Assembly: GCA_024653985.1 (NCBI GenBank)
Contig: JANLIS010000009.1
Span: 1 to 21,808 of the forward strand
Direction of reading: 5' to 3'
DNA from: Candidatus Roizmanbacteria bacterium
Lineage (GTDB): Bacteria; Patescibacteriota; Microgenomatia; UBA1406; GWC2-37-13
Length of the DNA stretch: 21,808 nt
Below, in pieces: positions 609 through 20,458 of the stretch (position 1 is the first letter of the stretch; each line of letters opens with the position of its first letter). A program made the translations under genes and the position numbers. Under the pieces are notes generated by a model that did not search any database, was not told where the DNA came from, and saw only the letters and a list, made by a program, of their open reading frames with translations.

Positions 609-1181
609 TTATTTAAACGAGCTATTGACTGTGTGATAGCTCACAATCGCCGCAGATACAATGACGTTCAATGATTTATTGACTCCAAACATCGGAATTT
701 CCACGATCTGATCAGCTAATTTCAGAGTTTCCAGGGTTACTCCATACGTTTCATTGCCTAAAATTAAAGCAACCGGCATTGAATAGTCGGCTTTTGCGTA
801 AGGAATGGAATTTCCCGCCTGTTCCACTGCGATTATCTTAACCTCCGCGGTTAAGCTCGAGTCATTGAATTTTGCAGAAACCGCGGAGGTTTTTACCTCA
901 GCAATGGCTTCTCCTGCAGTTTTCTTATATTCCCAAGGAACAACTTTGTATGTTCCGATCGATGCTTTTTTTATTTTTGAATTGGGTGGAATTTCGCTTT
1001 CTCCACATATATATATCTTTTCTATCGCCAAAGCATCAGCTAACCGAAACAGCCCACCGATGTTATATGTATCATAAATATTTTCTAAAATAAAATACAT
1101 CGGTCTGCGTTTTATATTTTTTAATTTTTCTGAAATGTCGTCTATATTAACATCGCGTAACTCTTTAGCATTCAGTTTCAT
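609..1181 (-). CDS. SpoU/TrmH-family RNA 2'-O-ribose methyltransferase
   Basis: Predicted SAM-dependent 2'-O-methyltransferase of the SPOUT class acting on tRNA or rRNA. The 190 residues carry the three SpoU motifs: motif 1 (N40 to R46 in YNIGGLFRLADA), motif 2 (LGNETYGV, 141-148) and motif 3 (EIPMFGVNKSLNV, 161-173), which form the trefoil-knot SAM site. It lacks the N-terminal substrate-binding domain of RlmB-type enzymes, so it resembles short TrmH-like proteins, and the target nucleotide cannot be assigned. Residues 98-114 (TSAV...TAEV) are encoded by a palindromic repeat and sit between the predicted first and second halves of the fold. A -10 box (1192-1187) lies 5 nt before the ATG, suggesting a leaderless transcript. 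Confidence 0.9.
   Translation of the reverse strand: MKLNAKELRDVNIDDISEKLKNIKRRPMYFILENIYDTYNIGGLFRLADALAIEKIYICGESEIPPNSKIKKASIGTYKVVPWEYKKTAGEAIAEVKTSAVSAKFNDSSLTAEVKIIAVEQAGNSIPYAKADYSMPVALILGNETYGVTLETLKLADQIVEIPMFGVNKSLNVIVSAAIVSYHTVNSSFK
840..893 (-). repeat. In-frame palindromic element inside the SpoU gene (variant centre)
   Basis: The arms ACCTCCGCGGTT and AACCGCGGAGGT match those of the 42-bp element found in three other genes here, but the centre is different and longer: 27 nt instead of 18 when read in codons. In the gene's frame it adds 17 codons beginning TSAV and ending TAEV, the same phase as the other copies. It may be an old copy with a replaced loop, or a sister subtype. 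Confidence 0.8.
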
Positions 1182-3307: not shown

Positions 3308-3961
3308 ATGTTGTACATTTCCCCGTTCGTAGCGTTTCTACTCACCGTTCTGGTGGTAGCCGCCATTGGCGCCCTAGTTGGCTTTCTCGTTTCACGAGTT
3401 TGGCCCATCGCTGGACGCTTTTTGTCCGTTGTAGCCGGCCTGTTGGTTGCCTTGATCCTCGGCCTTCTCGTTTGGCTGATCGTGATCTCGACTGTAACCT
3501 TCAGTCCCCGTGCCGTTGCACCCCCGGTGGTTGTTTCTAACCCCGCTCTCGGTGCCCCGTACGTCGCACAGCCCGTTCCCGCCCAATCGCAGCCCTTGCC
3601 CGCCGCCTGCTCTCGCCGTTTAATGACGACTTCCGAATTAACCAACCTGGTTGATTCTGTTTCGTCTGACGAATTCGCAGACACTTTGACGGTTTTAATC
3701 GGCAAGCAAGTGGACACCCAGTGTCTTAAGGACTTTACCAGTCCTGTTGGTAGTTGGCCCGTTACCGGACCGGCTGTGATCCTCACGGATCCTGGGCACC
3801 AACCCTTCACTGGCGGAGCACGAGTCGTAAAGACTTGGCATTTCCAAACAGATTGGATCTTTGGGGTTTATTTTTGCCCTTCTGGTTCCGTCTGCACGGT
3901 TCCCACGCCTGGTCGCGCGATTTTTCTCGACGGCAATTTGCCCGACGGATATCTTCACTAA
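3308..3961 (+). CDS. GC-rich membrane-anchored protein with an extracytoplasmic Cys-containing domain
   Basis: A 217-residue protein with two hydrophobic helices (about 5-30 and 38-62), a Pro/Val/Ala-rich linker (65-95), then a soluble domain of ~120 residues with four Cys (in AACS, TQCL, FCPS and SVCT), an even number that would allow two disulfides outside the cell. AAGGAG lies 7 nt before the ATG. Base composition is strikingly higher in G+C, with C-ending codons (GCC, CTC, CCC, GTC), unlike the AT-rich genes on both sides. This suggests recent transfer or strong selection on the RNA. No family is recognised. It is followed by the nested terminator at 4037-4125 and probably shares the 2209 promoter with the zinc-ribbon gene. 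Confidence 0.65.
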   Translation: MLYISPFVAFLLTVLVVAAIGALVGFLVSRVWPIAGRFLSVVAGLLVALILGLLVWLIVISTVTFSPRAVAPPVVVSNPALGAPYVAQPVPAQSQPLPAACSRRLMTTSELTNLVDSVSSDEFADTLTVLIGKQVDTQCLKDFTSPVGSWPVTGPAVILTDPGHQPFTGGARVVKTWHFQTDWIFGVYFCPSGSVCTVPTPGRAIFLDGNLPDGYLH

Positions 3962-9777: not shown

Positions 9778-11982
9778 ATGTCACAATTATCTCACCTACA
9801 AATCCGCAACCCGAAAGACGATGAAACGCCTATTGAGTCGGGCACACAGATCTTTGCCTCACTTCTCCCCTCTCATATCCCGCTTTGGAAAAGGTGGTTT
9901 CTTCATCCAAAAACCTATGCTTTTGAGATCTATCTGATTTCACAAAAGTTGTACTTTTATGTCACAACTCCATCTGTGTCAGAAACGTTAATAAGTAGTT
10001 TAGTACAATCTTCTTTTCCTACTTCAACTGTAAAAAAAACCAGCGACCCAATGAATTTGGTATTTAAGTCACCAAGATTCTCTGTCGGCGAGGTTGTCTT
10101 AAATTCTTATTCTTACTTACCGACAAAAACTTATTTTGATTTTAAGGATGTTGATCCATTATCTGCTCTTTTGGGCTTCCTGTCAAAGCAACCAGCTCAT
10201 TTCAAATTTGCAGTTCAGATCGCAATAACCCCGGCATATTTCGCCTGGGCTGATGATGCCGTTACCGCCGCCCGACACTTGACCTATGATGAAACAGCTG
10301 ATAAATATGGTCAAAATCCACAAAAATTACTAATCATGAAAAAAGCTTCTTTTCAAGGTGGTAAAGCCGTTATCCGCTTAGTCGTTGGATCAACCACAAA
10401 TGAAATTGACCCGTATCCGTATATGGTAAATCTTGCCGGAACATTTGGTAGTTTTTCTTTGGGCGAAGGTAATCAATATGGCTTCAAAAAAAGGATCTTC
10501 TTTAAACAAGCGTTGATCGATAGAATAAAAGCCAGAAAGATCAGTTTTTTTGAACATAAAGGTCAGATCCTCAATGCTCAGGAATTAGCTACTCTTTGGC
10601 ACCCGCCTGGATACCTGCTTGCAGGAATAAAAAATATGGCCTGGGGAAAAACACTTTTGGGAGAGCCACCGGAGAATTTACCGGTTGTTCCCCCCTCCAC
10701 AACCTCCGAGGTTGAGGAGCGAAGCGGGAAAACCTCGGAGGTTAATGATGCAAAAAATGACATTAACTTCTTTGCCAAAGCCGAATTTAAAAACAAAGAG
10801 ACAATTTTTGGAATAAAAACTGAAGATCGTCGTAAACATGTATATATTATTGGAAAAACCGGAGTTGGAAAGTCAACACTGATCGCCAACATGGCGATTG
10901 ATGATATACGCAAAGGCCGAGGAGTAGGCATTATTGACCCACACGGAGATCTTTCGGAAACTATTTTAGATTTTATTCCAAAACGAAGAATGAACGATGT
11001 TGTCTATCTTGAACCTTTTGATACGGAAAGGCCGTTTTCCCTGAATGTTTTGGAGATTAAAAATAAACAACAAAAAGACTTAGTTGCTTCAGGAATTGTC
11101 TCAATTTTCTACAAACTTTATAAAGATAGTTGGGGTCCACGACTTGAATATATTTTGAGAAATGTAATTTTGACCTTACTTGATTCACCTGGAGCAACTC
11201 TTGTGGACATCTTATCTCTTTTATCAAACGCTGAATATCGAAAAAAGGTCGTCCGTTCTCTTTCCGATCCTGTCTTAAAAGATTTCTGGGAAAAGGAATT
11301 TGCTAAGATGCCAGACCGCCTGAAGGCCGAAGCAATTTCCCCGATTCAAAATAAAGTCGGTCAATTTGTTACTTCTAAAATGATCAGAAATATAATTGGT
11401 CGGACAAAATCGTCAATTGATCTGGAACAGATCATGAATGAAGGTAAGATCTTAATTCTCAATCTTTCTCAGGGAAAGTTAGGTGAGGATAATACTGCCC
11501 TGCTCGGAGCCATGCTGATCACTCAGATTCAACTGGCGGCTATGAACCGTTCTTTTATTAAGGAAGCTGATCGAAAAGATTTTTTCCTTTACGTCGATGA
11601 GTTTCAAAACTTTGCCACTCAATCTTTTATCAAGATTCTGTCTGAGGCAAGAAAATATCGCCTATCTTTGACCTTAGCCAATCAATATATTGAACAGCTT
11701 GATGAAGAGGTAACAAGAGCAATATTTGGTAATGTGGGAACTTTAATGTCATTCGTGGTCGGTGCCCGAGATGCCTACATCCTAACCCGCGAATATGCAG
11801 AAATTTATACAGAAAATGATCTGGTTTCACTGGGAAAATTTGAGGCTGTTCTAAAACTTTCAATTGATGGAATGACTTCGGCTCCATTTCCTGTTACGAC
11901 TTTACCACTTCCGTCAATGAAAAATGATAATCGTGAGAAAATTATCAAGCTCTCCAAAGAAAAATACGGAAGAAAGGTATAA
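9778..11982 (+). CDS. VirD4/TraG-like P-loop ATPase (DNA-translocase type)
   Basis: A 734-residue protein of the FtsK/HerA/VirD4 ATPase superfamily, as in type IV coupling proteins. Residues 1-340 form an uncharacterised N-terminal region without clear membrane helices. The motor follows: Walker A GKTGVGKST (359-367), DPHGD (387-391), Walker B FFLYVDEF (602-609), and ANQY (634-637) as the sensor-like segment. Known relatives pump DNA in conjugation or other transport, but there are no other conjugation genes nearby and no membrane anchor, so the role may be cytoplasmic DNA or protein handling. Residues 309-322 (TSEVEERSGKTSEV) are encoded by the in-frame palindromic element and lie in the linker just before the motor. 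It converges on the 134-aa/702-aa operon with a 21-bp gap. Confidence 0.85.
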   Translation: MSQLSHLQIRNPKDDETPIESGTQIFASLLPSHIPLWKRWFLHPKTYAFEIYLISQKLYFYVTTPSVSETLISSLVQSSFPTSTVKKTSDPMNLVFKSPRFSVGEVVLNSYSYLPTKTYFDFKDVDPLSALLGFLSKQPAHFKFAVQIAITPAYFAWADDAVTAARHLTYDETADKYGQNPQKLLIMKKASFQGGKAVIRLVVGSTTNEIDPYPYMVNLAGTFGSFSLGEGNQYGFKKRIFFKQALIDRIKARKISFFEHKGQILNAQELATLWHPPGYLLAGIKNMAWGKTLLGEPPENLPVVPPSTTSEVEERSGKTSEVNDAKNDINFFAKAEFKNKETIFGIKTEDRRKHVYIIGKTGVGKSTLIANMAIDDIRKGRGVGIIDPHGDLSETILDFIPKRRMNDVVYLEPFDTERPFSLNVLEIKNKQQKDLVASGIVSIFYKLYKDSWGPRLEYILRNVILTLLDSPGATLVDILSLLSNAEYRKKVVRSLSDPVLKDFWEKEFAKMPDRLKAEAISPIQNKVGQFVTSKMIRNIIGRTKSSIDLEQIMNEGKILILNLSQGKLGEDNTALLGAMLITQIQLAAMNRSFIKEADRKDFFLYVDEFQNFATQSFIKILSEARKYRLSLTLANQYIEQLDEEVTRAIFGNVGTLMSFVVGARDAYILTREYAEIYTENDLVSLGKFEAVLKLSIDGMTSAPFPVTTLPLPSMKNDNREKIIKLSKEKYGRKV
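10701..10743 (+). repeat. In-frame 42-bp palindromic element inside the ATPase gene
   Basis: Arms ACCTCCGAGGTT and ACCTCGGAGGTT flank the 18-nt centre GAGGAGCGAAGCGGGAAA. Read from ACC at 10702 it is 14 codons with no stop: TSEVEERSGKTSEV. The arms have GAG where the other copies have GCG, matched on both sides, i.e. a compensated change that keeps the palindrome. The same GAG version (ACCTCCGAGGTT) is in the REPs flanking the RAYT. Confidence 0.9.
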
Positions 11983-12003
11983 ATAACTCCTTTTAATCAA
12001 ATA

Positions 12004-12408
12004 TTATCTTGCGACTGCGACGGGAGCTGAATTAGCGGCTAAAGAAATTTTACTTAATAGAGTTTGAATTGCTTTATCTTTGACCTCAGGGCTTTCCTGA
12101 TATTCCTTATCTTCTGGATCATAGAGCATGAAGATATTTTTTTCCAATTCTGTTCTTTCATTACGTAGATCTGCTAATTTATCGACCAAATCAGCATCAT
12201 GATCTTCAATTGCTGCCTCTTCCATCAATTCAAGCTCTTTATCCAAATATTCATTTAGATCAGCAATTGCTTCCGCGTCTGGAGTCTTGCCTTGAATAAG
12301 TAAATCCAAACAATTCAAATATTCTTGTTTTGCTTCATCAGGCAACTCTTCATTTTTTTCTACAAATTCTCTGATGAATTGAAATGGGGTTTTATTTTTA
12401 GTGTCCAT
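12004..12408 (-). CDS. Small acidic helical protein
   Basis: 134 residues, strongly acidic and predicted mostly alpha-helical (FVEKNEELPDEAKQEY, ELELMEEAAIEDHDAD). There is no signal peptide, membrane helix or recognisable motif; the tail (AANSAPVAVAR) looks flexible. The ATG lies 8 nt after the stop of the 702-aa gene with no SD, so expression is probably by translational coupling in the same transcript. It may bind or stabilise its large partner, but this is a guess. No family is recognised. Confidence 0.65.
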   Translation of the reverse strand: MDTKNKTPFQFIREFVEKNEELPDEAKQEYLNCLDLLIQGKTPDAEAIADLNEYLDKELELMEEAAIEDHDADLVDKLADLRNERTELEKNIFMLYDPEDKEYQESPEVKDKAIQTLLSKISLAANSAPVAVAR

Positions 12409-12416
12409 ATTTTTAT

Positions 12417-14525
12417 TTAATTAAAGAAATGATGATATAAACTTCTAACACCTCTTCCAGGTGCTCCAGCAATTTTTCTCACTCCTTCAGTAAAAGAAAG
12501 GGCAGTTACTGCAGTTGCGCCTGATCCGATAATTAAATCTTTCATTGCTCCCATTCTTTCAGCTGCAACTGATTTTAAAGCTCCATTTGTAATTGCAGTT
12601 ATTTGATCAGGAGCTAAGTTCATCTGTTGACTAAGTGACTGAACCTTATTGAAAGCATCTATGAATGGTTTAGAATTTTTGAACAATTCTGATGTTGACC
12701 CACTTTGAATTGCTGTTTGAATCTGATTAATATCCACGCCTTTTAATCCTTCCATTAAGCCTCTCATCAAATCCGGACCATTTTGTATTACTTCTTTTAA
12801 AGGTGCGACCAATGCATTAGTTTTAGCTAATATGCTATGAGCAGCATCAATATGTTGATTGATACCTAAATAAGTAGCTCCACCGACGATTCCAGCCGCT
12901 ATTCCTGCTTCGGTTCCCTTAACTGCTACATCCGCTAAGTTGGTTCTTAATGCTCCAGTACGAACGCCGTCAGCAGTATTTATACCATTAATCTTTGCAT
13001 TGGCTAATTTTATGTTGGCTACCCTATCTTTGCCGACTCTTTCAAGTGCTTTTGTTAATATTCTAACTTCAATTATATTTCCCGGCTCGACTTCGCTAAG
13101 CTTTTTTCTTAAACCATCCTCGGCAAATTCCGCCTTTACTAAACTAGCAAAAAGATTAGACCTTTCTGCTTTAGAATCATCACCATAGTCTTTATATGTT
13201 TCAGACTCATCTCCTAACACTGATTCATTTAATTTTCCTGAAAGTCTGACTCTAAGTTTATTTTGATCGGGTAATTGAGCTTCTTCTTCTTGAGGTAATT
13301 TTATAGCAATCAATCTTTCTTTTCCATCTCGTGTTACACTTATCTTGCACCCTAACGCGTCTTCAACCGATTTTTGTCTTCCACTCATCGCACCATAAAC
13401 TAATTTTCTTGCCGGATCAACAATATCTTTTGCTTTTATGGCTTCTTTTAGGCCTCTTGTTGTCAAGAGGCTATCCTGTAAGGGTTTTTTAAGAAAACCC
13501 GTAGGACCAGCTGGTTTTTCTATTAACTGCCTAACTCTATTTGCAGCAGAATTAATTGCAGATTTTAAAGCTACCTCGTCAGCTTGTGAGACCTCGGCCC
13601 CTTGATACATTTCCTGTAGTATTTCTTGAGCTTGATTTTCAATTGCCAAATCTTCTGCGACGTGCTCGCCTCTAACGTCAGCTGATAATCTTTTTGATCC
13701 CTTTAAATTTTCGTCTTTAACAGCCTTATCAACTTCTCTAGCAAGCCTTAACTCTTCTTTTCTGGTAGCATTGACTGCTTTTCTAAGAGCTTTGGCGCTG
13801 TCATAAAAAGCATCTTCAATTGGCAGATCCGACTTTACTTGTTCCTGAATTCTTTGGACAAGAACTTCCTGGCCAGCATAGTAAACAGGTACGTTTTCTG
13901 CAGCTTCTTCAGCTACCCGTATAGCTTTATCTAAGTTGCCTTTTTGCCATTTTGCTTTTACGTTTTCTGGTGTTTTTCCCCATTCATTCAATAAAGCTTT
14001 TCCATAACCAAGTGCTTTTTTTTCTACTCTTGCGGTTGCTTCCTTTCCAGCTGCTTCAATTTTTGCTTTATTTGTTTTTTCTAATTTAGCCTGTGCTGTA
14101 GACTCAAGCGCGTTTGTTTTAGCTTCATAATCCGGCTGTTCGCCTTGTTCGTAATCGGCTTTCTCTGCTTTTACTTGCTCGATTTGTTTTATAGATTTTA
14201 TTAATCTACTTTCTTTTTTACCTAAATCCTTCTTTATTTTTTTTGAATCTCTTATTTCTTTGTCCTTAATTACTCTTTTACTATGAACTTCCCCAAATCT
14301 TTTTCCCGCATCAACATGTGTTTGCTCTACCCTGGTAGCAGCGGTCGTAATTAGGTCCCCCAACTGTCCTTGCATTTTATCTGAAGATCTGGCTACGCGA
14401 GACAATTCATTTGCCTTTTGACGACCACTTTCCAAGTGAGCATTAATTTCTGCAGGTCTAATACCTTCTAATCCTCTAGGAACTTTAGCTACTACAACTG
14501 GACTTTCTGGTGCGGGTGCTGGCAT
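12417..14525 (-). CDS. Large helical protein of unknown function
   Basis: 702 residues. A Pro/Ala-rich N-terminus (MPAPAPESPVVVAK) leads into a long charged, Lys/Glu/Ala-rich region (~25-330) expected to form coiled coils. A less repetitive middle part (~360-500) includes beta-type segments (KLRVRLSGKL, NIIEVRILTK). Two hydrophobic Gly/Ala-rich segments follow near the C-terminus (AGIAAGIVGGATYLG at ~538-552 and GSGATAVTALSF at ~671-682), with a Met/Gln-rich stretch between them. It resembles scaffold, tape-measure or effector-type proteins in style, but no family is recognised. It is first in a two-gene operon with the 134-aa acidic protein, facing the VirD4/TraG-like ATPase gene, so it could be a substrate or partner of that ATPase; this is speculation. 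Confidence 0.65.
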   Translation of the reverse strand: MPAPAPESPVVVAKVPRGLEGIRPAEINAHLESGRQKANELSRVARSSDKMQGQLGDLITTAATRVEQTHVDAGKRFGEVHSKRVIKDKEIRDSKKIKKDLGKKESRLIKSIKQIEQVKAEKADYEQGEQPDYEAKTNALESTAQAKLEKTNKAKIEAAGKEATARVEKKALGYGKALLNEWGKTPENVKAKWQKGNLDKAIRVAEEAAENVPVYYAGQEVLVQRIQEQVKSDLPIEDAFYDSAKALRKAVNATRKEELRLAREVDKAVKDENLKGSKRLSADVRGEHVAEDLAIENQAQEILQEMYQGAEVSQADEVALKSAINSAANRVRQLIEKPAGPTGFLKKPLQDSLLTTRGLKEAIKAKDIVDPARKLVYGAMSGRQKSVEDALGCKISVTRDGKERLIAIKLPQEEEAQLPDQNKLRVRLSGKLNESVLGDESETYKDYGDDSKAERSNLFASLVKAEFAEDGLRKKLSEVEPGNIIEVRILTKALERVGKDRVANIKLANAKINGINTADGVRTGALRTNLADVAVKGTEAGIAAGIVGGATYLGINQHIDAAHSILAKTNALVAPLKEVIQNGPDLMRGLMEGLKGVDINQIQTAIQSGSTSELFKNSKPFIDAFNKVQSLSQQMNLAPDQITAITNGALKSVAAERMGAMKDLIIGSGATAVTALSFTEGVRKIAGAPGRGVRSLYHHFFN

Positions 14526-14616
14526 AAATTAGCAAGTAAAAAAAATACTAATAACTTCATATTAATGGTAATATCAACAAAAAGTCAAGTGATATTTGTG
14601 TAATGAATAATAAATA

Positions 14617-14838
14617 TTATAAATTTTTTGTCAATGCTCCAACTTTTATTTTCAAGATTTTAGAGATCCTATGAAGAAATTTGATTGACGGATTAGCTTT
14701 TCCTTCTTCAACTTCTGCCAAGTAGCTTCGGTCAACCTGAGACCTATCTGCGACTTGATGTTGTGATAGTTTTAGTTTTTTTCGATATGACAGAATACTC
14801 TCCCCCAATCTTTTGTAATAAAAATTTCCACGCACCAT
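14617..14838 (-). CDS. Small XRE-family HTH regulator (paralogue 1)
   Basis: A 73-residue single-domain transcription regulator of the Cro/CI type. The helix-turn-helix is at ~18-45 (KLSQHQVADRSQVDRSYLAEVE), with the family hallmark EEGKANPSIKFLHRISKIL at ~48-66. There is no sensor domain. A paralogue lies at 15725-15943 (shared IFxLRKRKKL/YRKKLKL, DRSYL/NRSYL and GxANPSxKxL blocks). A -10 box (TATTAT, 14850-14845) is 6 nt before the ATG, so the mRNA may be leaderless. A perfect 16-bp palindrome at 14873-14888 is centred ~42 bp before the start, a typical activator position and the likely self-binding site. It points toward the 702-aa/134-aa operon, with an 91-bp gap, and may control it. Confidence 0.85.
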   Translation of the reverse strand: MVRGNFYYKRLGESILSYRKKLKLSQHQVADRSQVDRSYLAEVEEGKANPSIKFLHRISKILKIKVGALTKNL

Positions 14839-14872
14839 GGAGCAATAATATTGGAAGGGAAAGCTTAATTCA

Positions 14873-14888
14873 GTAGGTTATAACCTAC
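14873..14888. promoter_or_regulatory. 16-bp perfect palindrome, likely HTH operator
   Basis: GTAGGTTATAACCTAC is perfectly symmetric and centred about 42 bp upstream of the first HTH gene's start, next to a weak -35 region. The half-site TAACCTACAAA recurs at 15990-16000 before the second HTH gene and at 16094-16104 before ychF, and nowhere else was it noticed in the window. Confidence 0.6.
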
Positions 14889-14960
14889 AAAGTGTATATT
14901 TTAGCCTATTTTAACAATATATTTACCTTAATATATAAGATTAATAATCTTTTAAGCTAT

Positions 14961-15002
14961 TTGCCAAGCTTATTCTAACCTCCGAGGTTAGAATCGGGTG
15001 GC
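14961..15002 (-). repeat. REP direct repeat downstream of the RAYT gene
   Basis: A 42-bp sequence with one mismatch to the copy at 15680-15721. It contains a perfect 23-bp palindrome, ATTCTAACCTC-C-GAGGTTAGAAT (14972-14994), between GCCA and TGGC. AGCTTATTC (14968-14976) can also pair with GAATAAGCT (15004-15012). It is 17 bp from the RAYT stop codon. Confidence 0.9.
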
Positions 15003-15019
15003 TGGAATAAGCTAAAAAG

Positions 15020-15667
15020 CTATTCAAGAATTAATTTTTTAATATGTTTTAATTCTCTTTGATATTCGATATTATTTTCAACAAATTGCTTATAATCATT
15101 AATGTTATTAATTGAAATTTCTGTTATAAAGTCATTCAGTAAGTTTTTATCAGTAATAAAATCCTTGTAAGATGAAAATATCCAATTCTCGGGTAGATCA
15201 ACAAGTCGATTGGTTGTTGGATTAAGGTGAATATATCTAGAAACATGCAAAAGTTGTTCGTTAGATCTTATTTCTACCGCTTTAAAACTATTTTGCCATA
15301 AAGGACCTTGACGATTAAATTTTATGTTGAAATAACGGGTAAAACTGTTCTCTACATCACCTAAAAACTTTGAGAATGTCTTATTCATACAAATTTTAAC
15401 TAAAAAATGATAATGATCGGGCATTATACAATAAGAAAGTATTTTGCATTTAGTATTTTCTCTTGGATATATAATATTTTGATAGTTGTATTTTTTTCTT
15501 TTTGTAATATTAGAAAAGCTTTTTGTTGTTAAATTACTATTATAAAAATCAAGGGTATTTAAAAATCTTTGGCCATTGTCAATATCTTTAAAAATTCCGT
15601 AATTTGAAATGCTTTTATTAAAAACATGATATATTTCCCCTTCAATGAATTTATCTTTTCTTCTCAT
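15020..15667 (-). CDS. RAYT: REP-associated Y1 tyrosine transposase
   Basis: A 215-residue HUH-superfamily nuclease related to IS200/IS605 TnpA. Visible hallmarks are the N-terminal GEIYHVFNKS (10-19), the HUH metal motif HYH in MPDHYHFLV (82-90), the probable catalytic Tyr112 in FTRYFN, the RQGPLWQNSFKA block (119-130) and RYIHLNP (144-150), which is diagnostic of RAYTs. Family enzymes recognise, cut and join single-stranded REP hairpins. It is complete and flanked by two 42-bp REPs in direct orientation, forming a REPtron-like unit (14961-15721). The N-terminal motif is HVFNKS instead of the more usual HVxxR. AT-rich codon use is like its neighbours. It sits exactly between two paralogous HTH genes, suggesting insertion into a tandem pair. 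Confidence 0.92.
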   Translation of the reverse strand: MRRKDKFIEGEIYHVFNKSISNYGIFKDIDNGQRFLNTLDFYNSNLTTKSFSNITKRKKYNYQNIIYPRENTKCKILSYCIMPDHYHFLVKICMNKTFSKFLGDVENSFTRYFNIKFNRQGPLWQNSFKAVEIRSNEQLLHVSRYIHLNPTTNRLVDLPENWIFSSYKDFITDKNLLNDFITEISINNINDYKQFVENNIEYQRELKHIKKLILE

Positions 15668-15679
15668 ATTTATATCATT

Positions 15680-15721
15680 TTGCCAAGCTTATTCTAACCT
15701 CCGAGGTTAGAGTCGGGTGGC
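15680..15721 (-). repeat. REP direct repeat upstream of the RAYT gene
   Basis: 41 of 42 bases match the copy at 14961-15002 and the orientation is the same; the single change (A to G at 15712) weakens the outer stem by one pair. It lies 12 bp before the RAYT start and 3 bp past the stop of the second HTH gene, so it could also end the HTH transcript. Confidence 0.9.
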
Positions 15722-15724
15722 AAA

Positions 15725-15943
15725 TTAGACGCTTTTTAACAGGTCGCATATTTTTATCTTTAAAACTCGACAGATCTTATTAAGAACTTTTACAGACGGG
15801 TTAGCAAACCCCTTCTCTATCTTAAAAAGATATGAACGATTAATATCACACAGAAGACACAGCTGTTCTTGAGTCAGTTTCTTTCTCTTTCTTAGTCTAA
15901 AAATTATTTTTCCTAGATTACGACAGAAAATATTTCTACACAT
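15725..15943 (-). CDS. Small XRE-family HTH regulator (paralogue 2)
   Basis: A 72-residue Cro/CI-type DNA-binding protein paralogous to the one at 14617. The helix-turn-helix is at ~20-45 (KLTQEQLCLLCDINRSYLFKIE), followed by EKGFANPSVKVLNKICRVLKI. The ATG at 15943 (MCRNIFCRNLGK) aligns with the start of the paralogue (MVRGNFYYKRLG); the longer frame from 15982 would add 13 residues of promoter DNA. Three Cys in the N-terminus and two in the HTH region are absent from the paralogue. The half-site TAACCTACAAA at 15990 lies at about the same distance upstream as in paralogue 1, suggesting a shared regulon. Its stop abuts the RAYT REP. Confidence 0.8.
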   Translation of the reverse strand: MCRNIFCRNLGKIIFRLRKRKKLTQEQLCLLCDINRSYLFKIEKGFANPSVKVLNKICRVLKIKICDLLKSV

Positions 15944-15989
15944 CCTGAAAAACAGCTTAATAAAGCTATTATTTACTGTCAATCGCTTA

Positions 15990-16104
15990 TAACCTACAAA
16001 ACAACTAAATTAGACTGTCACAAAAACATTATTTTATTGATAAATACATTAAAGTTATTTCTCGTCCCGCGAAGTTCGTAGAGAGAAGTTGGATAACCTA
16101 CAAA
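15990..16104 (+). promoter_or_regulatory. Two operator half-sites between the second HTH gene and ychF
   Basis: TAACCTACAAA occurs at 15990-16000 (preceded by TTA, as in the palindrome at 14873) and at 16094-16104. They are in the same orientation, 104 bp apart, in the divergent spacer. The first is placed to act on the HTH gene, and the second lies ~67 bp before ychF. Confidence 0.45.
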
Positions 16105-16153
16105 ATAGTGTTTTGGATTGCTGTAAAAGGATTATTTTTAATATATTGGTATA

Positions 16154-16162
16154 TGCTATAAT
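16154..16162 (+). promoter_or_regulatory. Extended -10 promoter of ychF
   Basis: TGCTATAAT, an extended -10 box, ends 8 nt before the ATG at 16171. There is no good -35 box and no SD, so a leaderless transcript is expected. Confidence 0.65.
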
Positions 16163-16170
16163 GTTCCTCT

Positions 16171-17319
16171 ATGAAACTATCAATAGGGATTGTCGGACTA
16201 CCAAACGTCGGGAAATCAACTCTTTTTAACGCCCTGCTTAAGAAACAAGTTGCCAATGTAGCCAATTATCCTTTCTGTACGATAGAACCAAATATTGGAA
16301 TAATCGAAGTACCCGATGAAAGGCTTCCTGTTCTGGCAAAGATCGTAAATACAACGAAGATCGTTCCGGCCGTCATAGAATTTTATGATATCGCCGGACT
16401 TGTAAAAGGTGCTTCAACGGGAGAAGGTTTAGGAAATAAATTCCTGTCACATATTAGGGAAGTTGAAGCGATAGTTCATGTTATCAGACTTTTTAAAGAT
16501 GGTAATGTTGTTCATGTTTCTGACAAGATCAAACCAGTTGATGATATAAAAACCATCGAAACCGAGTTGATCCTGGCTGATTTGGCTACACTTGAAAAAC
16601 AACCAAAAAACAGGGCAGGTCAAGACCTGCCCCTACAGAAGAATCAACAACAATTGAACAATGAAACAATTGAACAATTAAAAACCCAACTTAATAAAGG
16701 TATTCCTGCTAGAGATATTAATCTAACAGATGACGAAAAAATTGCTGTTAAACAATTAAATTTGCTTACTATCAAACCGGTTATCTATGTCTTTAATGTT
16801 TCTGAGCAGCAGTTGCAGAATAAAGAAGAAACGGAAAAAAAGATTAAAGAGATTATGGTTTCATTGTTCCATGGTTCCATTGTTAAAAACAATAACAATG
16901 AAGCAATGAAACAATCGAACAATTATTTATATTTATGTGCAAAATTGGAATCTGATATCGTTGCCCTTGACCCAAACGATCAAAAAGAATACTTGAAACA
17001 GTTCGGATTTGAAGAATCGGGGCTGAACCGACTGATAAAAAAATCTTATGAAATATTGGGATTGATCTCCTTTTTAACGGCGGGTGAAATAGAAGCCCGG
17101 GCTTGGACAATAAAAAAAGGCTGGTTAGCCCCACAAGCGGCTGGAACAATCCACACTGACTTTGAAAAAAAGTTTATCAAGGCCGATATTGCTAAATATG
17201 AAGACTTCGTTAAATGTGGTGGTTGGGTAAAAGCCCGAGAACAAGGACTGGTACAGATAACAGGTAAAGATTATGAAATGAAAGACGGAGAGGTGGTCGA
17301 ATTTAAGATAGGATCTTAA
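16171..17319 (+). CDS. ychF: Redox/ribosome-associated P-loop NTPase YchF (OLA1 family)
   Basis: An Obg-family P-loop protein that, in studied members, prefers ATP and binds ribosomes. Visible are Walker [10 protein letters not shown] (9-17), the G3 motif DIAG (73-76), the altered G4 motif NVSE (209-212) that gives ATP preference, and a C-terminal TGS domain (about 305-380, [25 protein letters not shown]). At 382 residues it is longer than the usual ~363. The extra length matches two repeat-derived segments: about 148-172 ([10 protein letters not shown] then NNETIEQL) in the coiled-coil region, and about 233-252 ([13 protein letters not shown]) between G4 and the following strand. Both keep the frame, and the catalytic motifs are intact. 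Confidence 0.95.
16613..16632 (+). repeat. In-frame palindrome inside ychF
   Basis: GGGCAGGTC (16613-16621) and GACCTGCCC (16624-16632) form a perfect 9-bp stem with an AA loop. It is much more GC-rich than the gene around it and encodes AGQDLP in the variable coiled-coil region. It appears to be a further REP family, unlike the other elements in this window. Confidence 0.7.
16645..16680 (+). repeat. AACAAT octamer repeat inside ychF, first
   Basis: Consecutive 8-nt units CAACAATT, GAACAATG, AAACAATT and GAACAATT encode the Asn/Gln-rich NNETIEQL. The 8-nt period is not a multiple of three, so each unit is read in a different frame; only the total keeps the gene open. Confidence 0.7.
16862..16925 (+). 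repeat. AACAAT octamer quasi-palindrome inside ychF, second
   Basis: CCATTGTT-type units on the left and AACAATGA-type units on the right form an imperfect inverted repeat. It encodes about 20 low-complexity residues ([16 protein letters not shown]) absent from typical YchF proteins at this position. Confidence 0.65.
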
Positions 17320-17321
17320 AA

Positions 17322-17430
17322 AATTACTAATTTCTAATTGACCTAATTAACCTAAAGAAGTCTCAATTTCCAATTGGTTATTGGGTATTTTTTAGAAATT
17401 AGAACAATTAGATTAATTAGGTTAATTTTT
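17322..17430 (-). repeat. CTAATT-unit intergenic quasi-palindrome, copy 2
   Basis: It lies between the convergent ychF and GT2 genes. The arms are CTAATTGACCTAATTAACC and GATTAATTAGGTTAATT, around a CCAATTGG-like centre. It starts just after the ychF stop and supplies the GT2 gene's last codons and TAA. It could act as a bidirectional terminator. Confidence 0.75.
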
Positions 17431-18271
17431 TTGTTCTCCATTTAATATATATCACCCAAAACCTAATTGATGAAAATAATGCAAATACAAACCCCGGGAA
17501 TCCGTCCATGAACCCTTTGTGACGAAAATACATCATCAAAAATGTCATTTTGGGCTTCCAAACAAAATAACTAAAAAAATTAAGTTTCATATCCTTTGGC
17601 ATTCTTTCTACCTCGGCAGTTGTATATCTGTCCCAACGGGCTAAATATCTAGAAAAATCAGGATCAGCATAATGAAGTATTGGGTTTTTTAGAAATCCAA
17701 TTGTTCCATTGTTTAATTGTTTCATTGTTTCATTGTTATCTTCACTTTTGACTTTTGACTTTTGAATTATTTCCACGTTCTCATGAACGTCTTTACAAGG
17801 AAACTTGGCAAAACCGTTTTTGTATAGACGGATAGTGTAGTCGGGATATTGTCCGCCTTTCATTAAAAATCCTGTCAAAAACCAGTTCTTGCGAGGGAGG
17901 TTATATGCCACAAGTTGATTAACCTCCGCGTTTTTCCCGCTTCGCTCCTCAACCGCGGAGGTTTGCCTCCAGACGATCGACTTAATTTCCTTCTTTAAAT
18001 TTTCTGATAATACTTCATCCGCATCTAATTGTAAGATCCATTCCCCTTGGGCCGCTTCAATCGCCTTCTGCTTATTCTTATGAAACATGACCGGATTATC
18101 TGAGTTAATTATTCTGATCTTTTTCCCATAGGATTTAGCCACTTCGATCGTTCGATCGGTCGAACCACCATCAACGATTATCACCTCATCAGCAATATCT
18201 ATTGCTGAGTCCAGTGGATAGTGAAGATTCTTTTCTTCATTGTAAACTGCAATGCAAAGGGATAATTTCAT
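17417..18271 (-). CDS. GT2 glycosyltransferase with two repeat-derived insertions
   Basis: A 284-residue GT-A glycosyltransferase of the WaaE/KdtX-like group. Visible are LSLCIAVYNEEKNL at the N-terminus, VDGGSTDRT (33-41), the metal motif QLDADE (81-86), the Y-P-D-Y-T-IRLY block (~142-150) and a basic/hydrophobic C-terminus with a probable membrane-binding helix (FVFALFSSIRFWVIYI). Known relatives add sugars to lipid-linked cores. Residues 104-117 (TSAVEERSGKNAEV) are the in-frame palindromic element. Residues ~169-191 (QKSKVKSEDNNETMKQLNN) come from adjacent heptamer (TCAAAAG) and octamer (AACAATNN) repeats. The final codons and stop derive from the CTAATT-unit repeat. Without the insertions it would be close to the usual ~250 residues. 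Confidence 0.85.
   Translation of the reverse strand: MKLSLCIAVYNEEKNLHYPLDSAIDIADEVIIVDGGSTDRTIEVAKSYGKKIRIINSDNPVMFHKNKQKAIEAAQGEWILQLDADEVLSENLKKEIKSIVWRQTSAVEERSGKNAEVNQLVAYNLPRKNWFLTGFLMKGGQYPDYTIRLYKNGFAKFPCKDVHENVEIIQKSKVKSEDNNETMKQLNNGTIGFLKNPILHYADPDFSRYLARWDRYTTAEVERMPKDMKLNFFSYFVWKPKMTFLMMYFRHKGFMDGFPGFVFALFSSIRFWVIYIKWRTKKLT
17698..17768 (-). repeat. Octamer plus heptamer repeats inside the GT2 gene
   Basis: 17698-17740 holds four 8-nt units (CATTGTTT-like), the same family as in ychF on the opposite strand. 17744-17766 holds three CTTTTGA heptamers, the family that fills the 1194-1310 spacer. Together they encode the low-complexity QKSKVKSEDNNETMKQLNN in frame. Confidence 0.7.
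17921..17963 (-). repeat. In-frame 42-bp palindromic element inside the GT2 gene
   Basis: In the gene's direction it reads ACCTCCGCGGTT, then the 18-nt centre GAGGAGCGAAGCGGGAAA, then AACGCGGAGGTT, encoding TSAVEERSGKNAEV. One arm base differs from the def copy (ACC to AAC), changing Thr to Asn. Orientation and phase match the other copies. Confidence 0.9.
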
Positions 18272-18273
18272 AT

Positions 18274-18389
18274 TAAATTAACCTAATTAATCTAATTATT
18301 CTAATTAATTTAAAAAATAACCAAGCACTAATTAGAAATTAGGATTTGTTTAGGTTAATTAGGTTAATTAGAAATTAGAAATTGACTTA
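18274..18389 (+). repeat. CTAATT-unit intergenic quasi-palindrome, copy 3
   Basis: It fills the spacer between the divergent GT2 and def genes. The left arm is AATTAACCTAATTAATC and similar 9-nt units, and the right arm is AGGTTAATTAGGTTAATTAG followed by AGAAATT units. Its ends touch or overlap both promoter regions. Confidence 0.75.
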
Positions 18390-18396
18390 TATATTA

Positions 18397-18402
18397 TATA
18401 AT
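18397..18402 (+). promoter_or_regulatory. -10 box of def
   Basis: TATAAT ends exactly 8 nt before the ATG at 18411, as in the genes at 1356 and 16171. The sequence where a -35 box should lie is the end of the CTAATT-unit repeat. No SD is present. Confidence 0.65.
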
Positions 18403-18410
18403 AATCTCAT

Positions 18411-18962
18411 ATGAAAATCGTTACCGTTCCAAACAATGTCCTCTCATCCCCTACTAAATCAGTTATTGATATTGATAATCATATCAAAAAAATTGTTTCT
18501 GATATGGAACAAGTTTTAATTGCTCAAGATGATCCTCCAGGCGTTGGACTTGCTGCCAATCAAGTCGGATTGGACCTATCAATATTCATCATTAAACCAA
18601 CTGAAAAATCAAAAACTAAAGTATTTATTAACCCGCAGGTTGTAAAAACCTCCGCGGTTGAGGAGCGGAGCGGGAAAACCGCGGAGGTTAAATCAAAAAA
18701 AAGCAAAAAGAAAGTAAAATTGGAAGGTTGTTTGTCTATCCCCCGTATCTGGGGGCCGGTAAAACGGGCTGATCGGGTATTTCTTAATTATCAAGATCTC
18801 ACTGGAAAAAAATACCTAAAATGGTTTTCCGGTTTCGAAGCTATAATTATTCAACACGAAGTTGATCATCTTAATGGGGTTGTATTTACTCAAAGATCTA
18901 TCGAACAAAAGAGACAATTGTATAGAGAAGAGAAGGATGAGCTGGTCAAAATTGAGTACTAA
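18411..18962 (+). CDS. def: Peptide deformylase with an in-frame palindromic insertion
   Basis: It removes the formyl group from the N-terminal Met of new proteins and is a metalloenzyme of the ribosome exit site. All three family motifs are intact: GVGLAANQVG (44-53), EGCLS (105-109, Cys metal ligand) and QHEVDH (148-153, two His ligands and the catalytic Glu). At 183 residues it is slightly longer than usual. Residues 80-93 (TSAVEERSGKTAEV) are encoded by the palindromic element and lie in the loop between the FINPQVV strand and motif 2; the KSKKSKKK stretch after it is also atypical. Because deformylase is normally essential, the insertion must be tolerated. The TAA stop comes from the next CTAATT-unit repeat. 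Confidence 0.95.
   Translation: MKIVTVPNNVLSSPTKSVIDIDNHIKKIVSDMEQVLIAQDDPPGVGLAANQVGLDLSIFIIKPTEKSKTKVFINPQVVKTSAVEERSGKTAEVKSKKSKKKVKLEGCLSIPRIWGPVKRADRVFLNYQDLTGKKYLKWFSGFEAIIIQHEVDHLNGVVFTQRSIEQKRQLYREEKDELVKIEY
18647..18689 (+). repeat. In-frame 42-bp palindromic element inside def
   Basis: ACCTCCGCGGTT, the 18-nt centre GAGGAGCGGAGCGGGAAA and ACCGCGGAGGTT make 14 open codons from ACC at 18648, TSAVEERSGKTAEV. The 12-bp arms are perfect. The centre differs by one base from the copies at 10701 and 17921, and the change is silent (CGA to CGG). Confidence 0.92.
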
Positions 18963-19079
18963 TTTCTAATTAACCTAATTGATCTAATTTCTACAAAATG
19001 ACCAAGTATCAATTGGGGATTAAAAAATTGGGGTTTATTTAGGTCAATTAGACTAATTAGGTAATTAGATCAATTTAAC
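18961..19079 (+). repeat. CTAATT-unit intergenic quasi-palindrome, copy 4
   Basis: It lies between the convergent def and rpmB genes and starts within the def stop codon. The arms are CTAATTAACCTAATTGATC and AGGTCAATTAGACTAATTAG, around a CAATTGGGG centre. A bidirectional terminator role is plausible. Confidence 0.75.
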
Positions 19080-19504: not shown

Positions 19505-19626
19505 TATTAAATTAACCTAATTGATCTAATTATTCTAATTGATCTAAAAAATAACCAATCGCCAATTGAGAATTGGGACTTATTTAGGTTAATTAGGTCA
19601 ATTAGAAATTAGAAATTAGAAATTTA
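19505..19626 (+). repeat. CTAATT-unit intergenic quasi-palindrome, copy 5
   Basis: The clearest copy: the 9-nt units CTAATTGAT, CTAATTATT, CTAATTGAT and CTAAAAAAT run in series, then AACCAATCGCC, then the complementary arm AGGTTAATTAGGTCAATT and several AGAAATT heptamers that run to 3 bp before the M50 start codon. It lies between the divergent rpmB and M50 genes. Confidence 0.8.
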
Positions 19627-20275: not shown

Positions 20276-20458
20276 CGAATTATTAAATATTAAATATTAA
20301 TTATTAAATAAATCTTAAAGATTAAATATTAAAGGTCAAAGAAATATTAAATAGCAAATAAAATGTCATTCCCGCGGAGGCGGGAATCCAAGCATTCCTG
20401 GATCCCCGTTTTCACGGGGATGACAATTATTTAACCTTTAAGATTTAAGATTTAACTG
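20276..20458. repeat. AT-rich quasi-palindrome interrupted by a BIME
   Basis: The left part (20276-20364) is built from TTAAATATT and CTTAAAGATT units. The right part (20425-20458) has the complementary CCTTTAAGATTTAAGATT. Between them sits a complete REP pair (20365-20424). The layout suggests that a BIME inserted near the centre of an older repeat. It lies between the convergent M50 and Fn3 genes. Confidence 0.65.
20365..20424. repeat. BIME-like pair of inverted REP sequences, copy 3
   Basis: GTCATTCCCGCGGAGGCGGG (20365-20384) and AATCCA form one hairpin unit, identical to the first unit at 484-509. After a 6-7 nt spacer, CTGGATCCCCG...CGGGGATGAC (20398-20424) forms the second. This is the tightest of the pairs. 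Confidence 0.88.

Follow-up and report, generated by a model that had tools for sequence, protein, structure and literature searches.

In-frame palindromic doublets in Roizmanbacteria genes as candidate REPIN-like elements, with a RAYT transposase as their probable mover

A stretch of 21,808 nucleotides from a Candidatus Roizmanbacteria genome (GenBank assembly GCA_024653985.1, contig JANLIS010000009.1, positions 1 to 21,808; hereafter the window) contains four palindromes inside protein-coding genes, starting at positions 840, 10701, 17921 and 18647, and all four host genes stay open across them. Each palindrome is a doublet of inverted arms around a short centre, and the arms share their core with hairpins on both sides of a transposase gene in the same window. 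We are inclined to think that the doublets are short, non-autonomous mobile elements resembling REPINs (hairpin-forming doublets of repetitive extragenic palindromes, REPs), which have spread in the Roizmanbacteria family, are moved by a REP-associated tyrosine transposase (RAYT), and are selected, where they sit in genes, through the peptide that they encode.

The arms of the window doublets are 13 bp long (AACCTCCG[C/A]GGTT and its complement), and the centre of the three short copies is 17 nt, which corrects the 12-bp arms and 18-nt centre of a first-pass annotation made from these letters alone. All four doublets follow an inverted AACC-N5-GGTT consensus, the one at 17921 with one mismatch. 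With up to two mismatches allowed, the arm pattern has 20 matches in the window where 1.0 would be expected, and none of 100 shuffles reaches 20; palindromic arms are scored on both strands and thus count double, and the match at 3520 is unrelated. The first-pass annotation had recognised the copies at 10701, 17921 and 18647 as sharing frame and orientation, and a fourth gene, for a SpoU protein, as having the same arms and another centre; we find the same, and all four are indeed read in the direction of the host gene starting at an ACC codon. Its account of the open frames also holds, the canonical centre leaving five of six open. By prediction from the sequence, each element should add about 14 amino acids to its host protein.

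The copy at 10701..10743 (plus strand) carries the canonical centre and TSEVEERSGKTSEV and lies in a VirD4/TraG-like gene for a type IV coupling-protein-like ATPase (9778..11982, plus; PF10412, 2.2e-11). It is an A/T arm variant in which the change is compensated across both arms, as had been noticed before. A C/G arm variant (TSAVEERSGKTAEV) at 18647..18689 (plus) lies in the gene for peptide deformylase (18411..18962, plus; PF01327, 2.6e-40), in a variable stretch preceding EGCLS. Folding of these two copies with DNA parameters gave hairpins of -12.8 to -15.3 kcal/mol with z about -5 (-13.5 kcal/mol for the ATPase copy and -15.3 kcal/mol for the deformylase copy, each with z -4.8). The third short copy, at 17921..17963 (minus) in a GT2 glycosyltransferase gene (17417..18271, minus; PF00535, 2.5e-21), has a single unpaired arm base (TSAVEERSGKNAEV), with N in place of the T of five homologues that are 96-99% identical (P0242-P0246), and from this comparison looks like a copy with a private mutation. 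The remaining doublet, at 840..891 (minus), adds 51 nt net with the centre SAKFNDSSL to a SpoU/TrmH-type gene for a SpoU-family RNA methyltransferase (609..1181, minus; PF00588, 2e-29), and homologues show other centres at the same junctions. The deformylase retains GVGLAANQ, EGCLS and HEVDH, which we take to be its active-site motifs, despite the element; the earlier statement that the active-site motifs of all the hosts are preserved is upheld for this protein only. An AlphaFold2 model of the deformylase, built with 42 close homologues, had a mean pLDDT of 43.6, and we therefore make no structural claim. An Rfam scan of the window gave no family at threshold.

The candidate for the mobilising enzyme is encoded at 15020..15667 (minus), a gene that the first-pass annotation did not contain. 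The open reading frame (ORF) of 215 amino acids encodes a Y1 transposase of the RAYT type, whose membership of the Y1/HUH group is seen in its matches to Pfam Y1_Tnp (PF01797, 1.3e-12) and PDB 4er8 TnpArep (1.1e-4) and in the segments MPDHYHFL and SRYIHLNP, presumably the HxH and catalytic tyrosine motifs of RAYTs; the NCBIfam model REP_Tyr_transpos matched at 1.3e-20 and 73.7 bits, below its cut-off of 80. Solitary REP-like hairpins that share the doublet core flank the gene on both sides, the downstream one at 14947..15002 with the core AACCTCCGAGGTT at 14977-14989 and the upstream one at 15666..15721 with the same 13-nt core at 15696-15708, neither assigned to a strand; together they form a 56-nt direct repeat with 88% identity. 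It is this sharing of the core between the doublet arms and the RAYT-flanking hairpins that would make the RAYT the most likely mover. Ten solitary hairpins inspected in this genome were distributed over genes (three), ORF ends (two) and places without a long ORF (five). The three in-gene hosts belong to the UPF0004/radical-SAM, PMT_2 and class-I tRNA-synthetase families, and two of these three hairpins (loci L047 and L049, near 2001) have GGTCAG for GGTTAG and so are free of a stop codon in the reading frame of the host. A second RAYT gene of this genome (locus L052, G000:C122, 1702-2526) has a AACCCCCGGGGTT core on both sides; AACCCCCGGGGTT arms also occur in an in-gene doublet of the relative G025 (locus L310).

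The genome to which the window belongs (G000; the window is contig C24 of a 127-contig, 817-kb assembly that is 86% complete) contains 15 doublets, 14 of them exact and the fifteenth the mutated copy at 17921. All 15 lie in ORFs and all are in phase 0; they measure 42, 48 or 51 nt net, and the ten copies with a directional centre all run in sense. Because 84% of the window is coding, location in genes is by itself weak evidence (the probability of 15 out of 15 by chance is 0.07); the phase departs strongly. Further hosts with Pfam matches are DHFR, two group-1 glycosyltransferases, DnaX-like, DHH-family, GDP-mannose dehydratase/epimerase, 60KD_IMP (YidC-type) and IPP transferase (MiaA) proteins, and one host is without a family match; MiaA and the DHH-family protein, which we take to be RecJ, have two doublets each. 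The first-pass annotation had held that mostly intergenic copies would speak against its reading; none of the 15 is of this kind, and related doublets do lie outside genes elsewhere, seven of the nine copies in G043 (same centre type, TTCAA arms) having no ORF of 100 amino acids across them and, among the matches listed for other phyla (at most three per locus), many doublets with the same core having no open frame of 70 amino acids.

Across 72 genomes of the family, G000 included, exact-arm doublets were found in 10, the canonical centre with up to three mismatches in 15, and any AACC-N5-GGTT doublet in 24, a backward control pattern occurring in one (G044). In 379 genomes of the phylum the canonical centre was found in this genome only; since G050 is the one other family member listed for that set, the scan shows only that genomes beyond the family rarely have this centre. 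The same centre also occurs between other arms, AACCGACTCGGTT, AACCGCCGCGGTT and AACCCCCGGGGTT, which are still complementary. In an alignment of 13 sequences, 98.2% of the arm cells pair and 5 of the 13 pairs are altered on both sides, a result matched by none of 500 shuffles and higher than in slid controls; as the elements spread as units, this covariation shows that the arms change jointly, not how often they do so. A scan of viral sequences found a same-core doublet on one contig. An apparent homologue of the window's TraG-like ATPase in G020 (locus L338) has three consecutive overlapping doublets before ...VNFFAK, near the site of the window copy.

The phase of the in-gene copies follows a pattern that, judged from the sequences, speaks more for selection acting on the added peptide than for insertion in a set direction. 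Our count covers 44 copies in genes whose centre has an orientation, drawn from part of the AACC-N5-GGTT doublets detected in the family; unoriented centres such as that at 840 and the copy at 17921 are not in this count, and nine unclear or non-genic copies, one of them truncated by a contig end (locus L303), were kept apart. Thirty-six are sense phase 0, two antisense phase 0, three sense phase 1 and three antisense phase 2; equal use of the open frames would give 36 of 44 with a binomial probability of 9e-17, the copies being not fully independent. The non-random phase and orientation reported in the first-pass annotation thus stand, and of the two causes it offered, selection or a directional mechanism, the exceptions weaken the second. 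The length is divisible by three in all 44 copies and, in a wider set, in 56 of 60 copies in genes versus 12 of 24 outside; the 60 in-gene rows of that set include the overlapping doublets of a single array (L338) and one locus from outside the family (L060). Flanks with a mean hydropathy of at least 1.3, a cut-off picked post hoc with the values already seen, surround 5 of the 6 phase-shifted copies versus 1 of the 38 phase-0 copies (Fisher 3e-5). The hosts of the five hydrophobic phase-shifted copies are a prepilin peptidase, three PMT-type proteins (two below the Pfam cut-off) and one protein at a contig edge. This occurrence of phase-shifted copies in hydrophobic contexts is why we favour selection on the peptide.

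Histories of individual sites were read from protein sequences in the closest 120 homologues, out of thousands, for each of SpoU, deformylase and GT2, and the counts are not population frequencies. Both arms are present in the same SpoU loop in 17 of the 120 homologues, with 15 different centres. Eight of these have exactly identical junctions on both sides and show seven centres between them, namely that of the window copy (SAKFNDSSL), two variants drifted from it, the canonical type (P0128), the canonical type inverted, FPLRSS (P0127, P0129), KDPPVGGGK (P0224) and KNQQDKEQ (P0125), the last of which is also found in the RecJ of this genome. Other SpoU homologues have a single arm (TSEV, P0130), a shortened form (P0150) or no element (P0135 and P0141). 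Among the 120 deformylases, six have the element, all with a common left junction and with centres of three kinds, one of them inverted (P0092), and 10 of the 120 GT2 proteins have both arms. In RecJ, the element of G000 and that of G014 are identical in 43 of 43 positions, amid nearest flanks identical in 45 of 60 and 47 of 60, and in none of 186 overlapping 43-nt windows taken upstream do more than 39 positions agree; this comparison points to constraint on the element or its renewed copying. We considered a single ancient insertion for shared sites, and RecJ site 1 of G000 and G014 does look like one insertion; different inserts occupy the same stretches in many relatives. Subtracting the element by eye brings two sites, that in RecJ of G017 and that in GT2 of P0334, to lengths that differ from those of some relatives by roughly two residues at most, and the RecJ and deformylase of this genome come out shorter than their relatives.

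If RAYTs move the doublets, their loci in the relatives may be expected to carry matching palindromes, and in part they do. RAYT homologues gave 128 matches in 48 of the 72 family genomes, of which we examined 70 loci, 40 of them hand-picked and many from doublet-bearing genomes. AACC-N5-GGTT palindromes on both sides, the criterion that we applied, were present at 22 of 50 loci with at least 45% identity and at 2 of 20 below that, compared with 1 of 2400 random window pairs (from 60 RecJ and deformylase loci) and none of the shuffled flanks. The criterion is strict, as the RAYT of G022, which is bordered by doublets on both sides, still fails it. N5 varies among RAYTs and is frequently identical left and right. 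In G000, G017 and G019, RAYTs with AACCTCCGAGGTT flanks occur together with doublets that have these arms; besides G022, the RAYT of G043 has a doublet on one side, and in both genomes the respective doublet types are multiplied. Outside this family, at least four doublet loci among the matches listed have a RAYT-like ORF, with same-core arms on both sides (L112, L096), on one side (L175), or, in L153, between ACCTCCGGGGTT doublets, a GGGG variant.

Several observations weigh against RAYT-moved mobile elements. The outer stems of the solitary hairpins beside the RAYT are missing from the doublets, and the flanks of the window copies, read for these copies only, show no GTAG/CGTC tag. G025, a 98% complete genome with nine exact-arm doublets, has five RAYT matches, none of them flanked by the core of those doublets (two have TGACA-type palindromes and three have none). 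The RAYT of G069 has a different core, no flanking pair was found in G035 (four of five matches inspected) or G052 (two of two), and the homologue search over the 72 family genomes gave no RAYT match in G016; G014 has one distant match, outside the 70 loci examined. Conversely, the RAYTs of G002, G006 and G015 have this core yet these genomes have no exact-arm doublet, G015 having near copies, and 28 of the 50 closer RAYT loci are without a flanking pair. The hydropathy contrast is clear for phase only, the comparison of all 8 non-canonical with the 36 canonical copies giving a Mann-Whitney P of 0.06. The deformylase loop minus its element measures 14 amino acids as against 21-42 in all 120 homologues, too short for insertion to have been a simple addition. 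We recovered no clean DNA-level empty site and, in these sequences, have seen no movement. Perhaps, then, the doublets are selfish palindromes like the Rickettsia palindromic elements (RPEs), moved by another agent or by template switching alone, their core shared with the RAYT by convergence or because RAYTs settle in palindromes. The doublet-rich G025, the lack of a RAYT match in G016 and the absent outer stems all fit this alternative, and an insertion sequence that inserts into REPs has been reported (PMC8450116, in outline). What it does not readily account for is the pairing of AACC-N5-GGTT at 22 of 50 RAYT loci versus 1 of 2400 window pairs, or the RAYTs of G022 and G043 with their bordering doublets on two sides and one, of types multiplied in those same genomes. 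The match between RAYTs and doublets is incomplete, and for this reason we put forward a RAYT-moved element as the best explanation in a guarded manner and regard a mover other than the RAYT as possible though doubtful.

A further reading builds on the site histories. The doublets could be in-frame exchangeable loop cassettes, where the RAYT and template switching would together keep the arms and swap, invert, replace or lose the centres, so that, in a streamlined genome, one mobile system would keep rewriting the loops of housekeeping proteins. Nine of the 17 SpoU copies are bordered by additional residues on one side or on both, a pattern to be expected if a single loop took up insertions repeatedly; this counts slightly against the cassettes, which we rate as unlikely. 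Still less probable is a cassette kept for its function, be it to diversify loops or, through its peptide, to stabilise or regulate the host; the RecJ pair, with 43 of 43 identical positions between less conserved flanks, and the SpoU proteins with constant arms and varying centres would suit it, but the hosts are unrelated to one another and both arms are lacking in 103 of the 120 closest SpoU homologues, 114 of the 120 deformylases and 110 of the 120 GT2 proteins. If the insertion machinery or the choice of target fixed how the element lies on the coding strand, in phase as well as in orientation, this would explain what 36 of the 44 oriented copies have in common; we consider it very improbable, a shade more so than the functional cassette, given the eight copies that depart from the rule, of which five lie in hydrophobic contexts, the non-genic position of most G043 copies, and the centre that runs both ways at identical SpoU junctions and at the same left junction of deformylase. 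Finally, the element might be removed from the mRNA or skipped by the ribosome, leaving the protein unchanged. A stable hairpin is predicted with DNA parameters, and hop elements form a stable hairpin. Skipping requires neither an open length in multiples of three, which all 44 oriented copies have, nor a phase that follows the protein context, so that both count against it, and we give it scarcely any credence.

Returning to RAYT-moved, REPIN-like elements, we picture their life as follows. The RAYT would, most likely, move doublets in trans as single-stranded hairpins. Of the copies that land in genes, those would persist whose peptide the protein can accommodate, in regions that vary between homologues; the preferred frame would yield a hydrophilic TxxV...TxxV peptide retained in the protein, while the other frames would survive in membrane-like surroundings, if selection is indeed what shapes the frame pattern. 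After insertion, the homologues suggest, the arms would persist and the centre would drift, invert, be replaced or be lost. Template switching between inverted arms may account for centre inversion and compensated arm changes. For template switching at inverted repeats, one published report describes how arms are homogenised and spacers inverted within coding DNA (PMC8604942), and another describes compensatory changes with loop inversion (PMC8794818). Template switching is a mutation process and not an element, and could explain the later evolution of the doublets and not their spread.

Among known systems, REPIN doublets are described in outline as spreading through extragenic space (PMC3116915). 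The doublets resemble them in having two inverted palindromic units, a variable spacer, the ability to form a hairpin and a unit core in common with RAYT-flanking hairpins; a unit matching the RAYT flank of the same genome is found here (core AACCTCCGAGGTT at 14977 and 15696; the core only, as the outer stem differs) and not in G025. They differ from REPINs in that 15 of 15 doublets of this genome are in ORFs and not extragenic, related doublets lying outside genes in G043 and other genomes, and from GTAG/CGTC-tagged REPs in that the window copies have no tag. RPEs and the Wolbachia palindromic elements (WPEs) are introduced in PMC3767692 and PMC10969869 as palindromic repeats in frame in unrelated genes, and the likeness to RPEs, with what would be another sequence, which the first-pass annotation had pointed out, is real, with 44 oriented in-gene copies of in-frame palindromes in unrelated protein genes. 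Length and lineage set the two apart: RPEs are given as 100-150 bp and from Rickettsiales, unlike the elements here, mostly 42-60 nt, which are from Patescibacteria and have a RAYT candidate and centre turnover. Intragenic dimers of GTAG/CGTC REPs (in O. terrae, R. conorii and others) are reported in PMC3733652, in the part available, to contribute 20-30 amino acids to ORFs, sometimes two per gene. The doublets are likewise within ORFs and sometimes two in one gene, but they differ in sequence, tag and lineage, and neither a frame that follows context nor centre swapping is described in that part of the report. Compared with miniature inverted-repeat transposable elements (MITEs), inverted arms are present, and no clean DNA-level empty site that would show a target-site duplication was found. 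From its sequence, then, the element is built like a REPIN that entered genes, and we file it neither as a GTAG/CGTC REP nor as an RPE.

The window contains other repeats. A second in-gene kind (AACAATGAAACAATTG-like), at 16642-16680, 16855-16925 and 17700-17737, encodes NNETMKQLNN in the GT2 protein and another peptide in a YchF-type GTPase, and loops of homologues have the similar TMKQSNNET. An AT-rich intergenic family (TCTAATTAACCTAATT...) occupies 17322-17396, 18271-18383, 18965-19022 and 19505-19617, with up to 113 nt at 88% identity, and identical 30-nt palindromic repeats TGTCATTCCCGCGGAGGCGGGAATCCAAGC lie at 483-512 and 20364-20393, towards both contig ends. In G025, a tRNA-synthetase-like protein (locus L200, 29-1204) carries VILSEAKDLLRMRDSNKLRDSSAKPQND, which looks like another in-frame repeat insert.

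In-frame REP dimers and RPEs are themselves already known, and a search over titles and the beginnings of abstracts returned no report of such elements in Patescibacteria. Within the literature searched, what seems to be new is the combination of hosts among the Patescibacteria, a RAYT as candidate mover of palindromes in genes, a phase that follows protein context, and persistent arms with turnover of the centre. The dissemination of REPs has been called poorly understood (PMC8266576, as abstracted), and protein change of the RPE kind elsewhere is presented as only conceivable in passages of a 2024 review (PMC10969869). What we describe is the joint occurrence, over many species, of a candidate transposase, the hairpins that go with it and dozens of copies in frame, with homologues in which arms and centres evolve separately. 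It opens mobility, the selection of frames and the tolerance of loops to direct tests and bears on the annotation of the proteins of these Patescibacteria.

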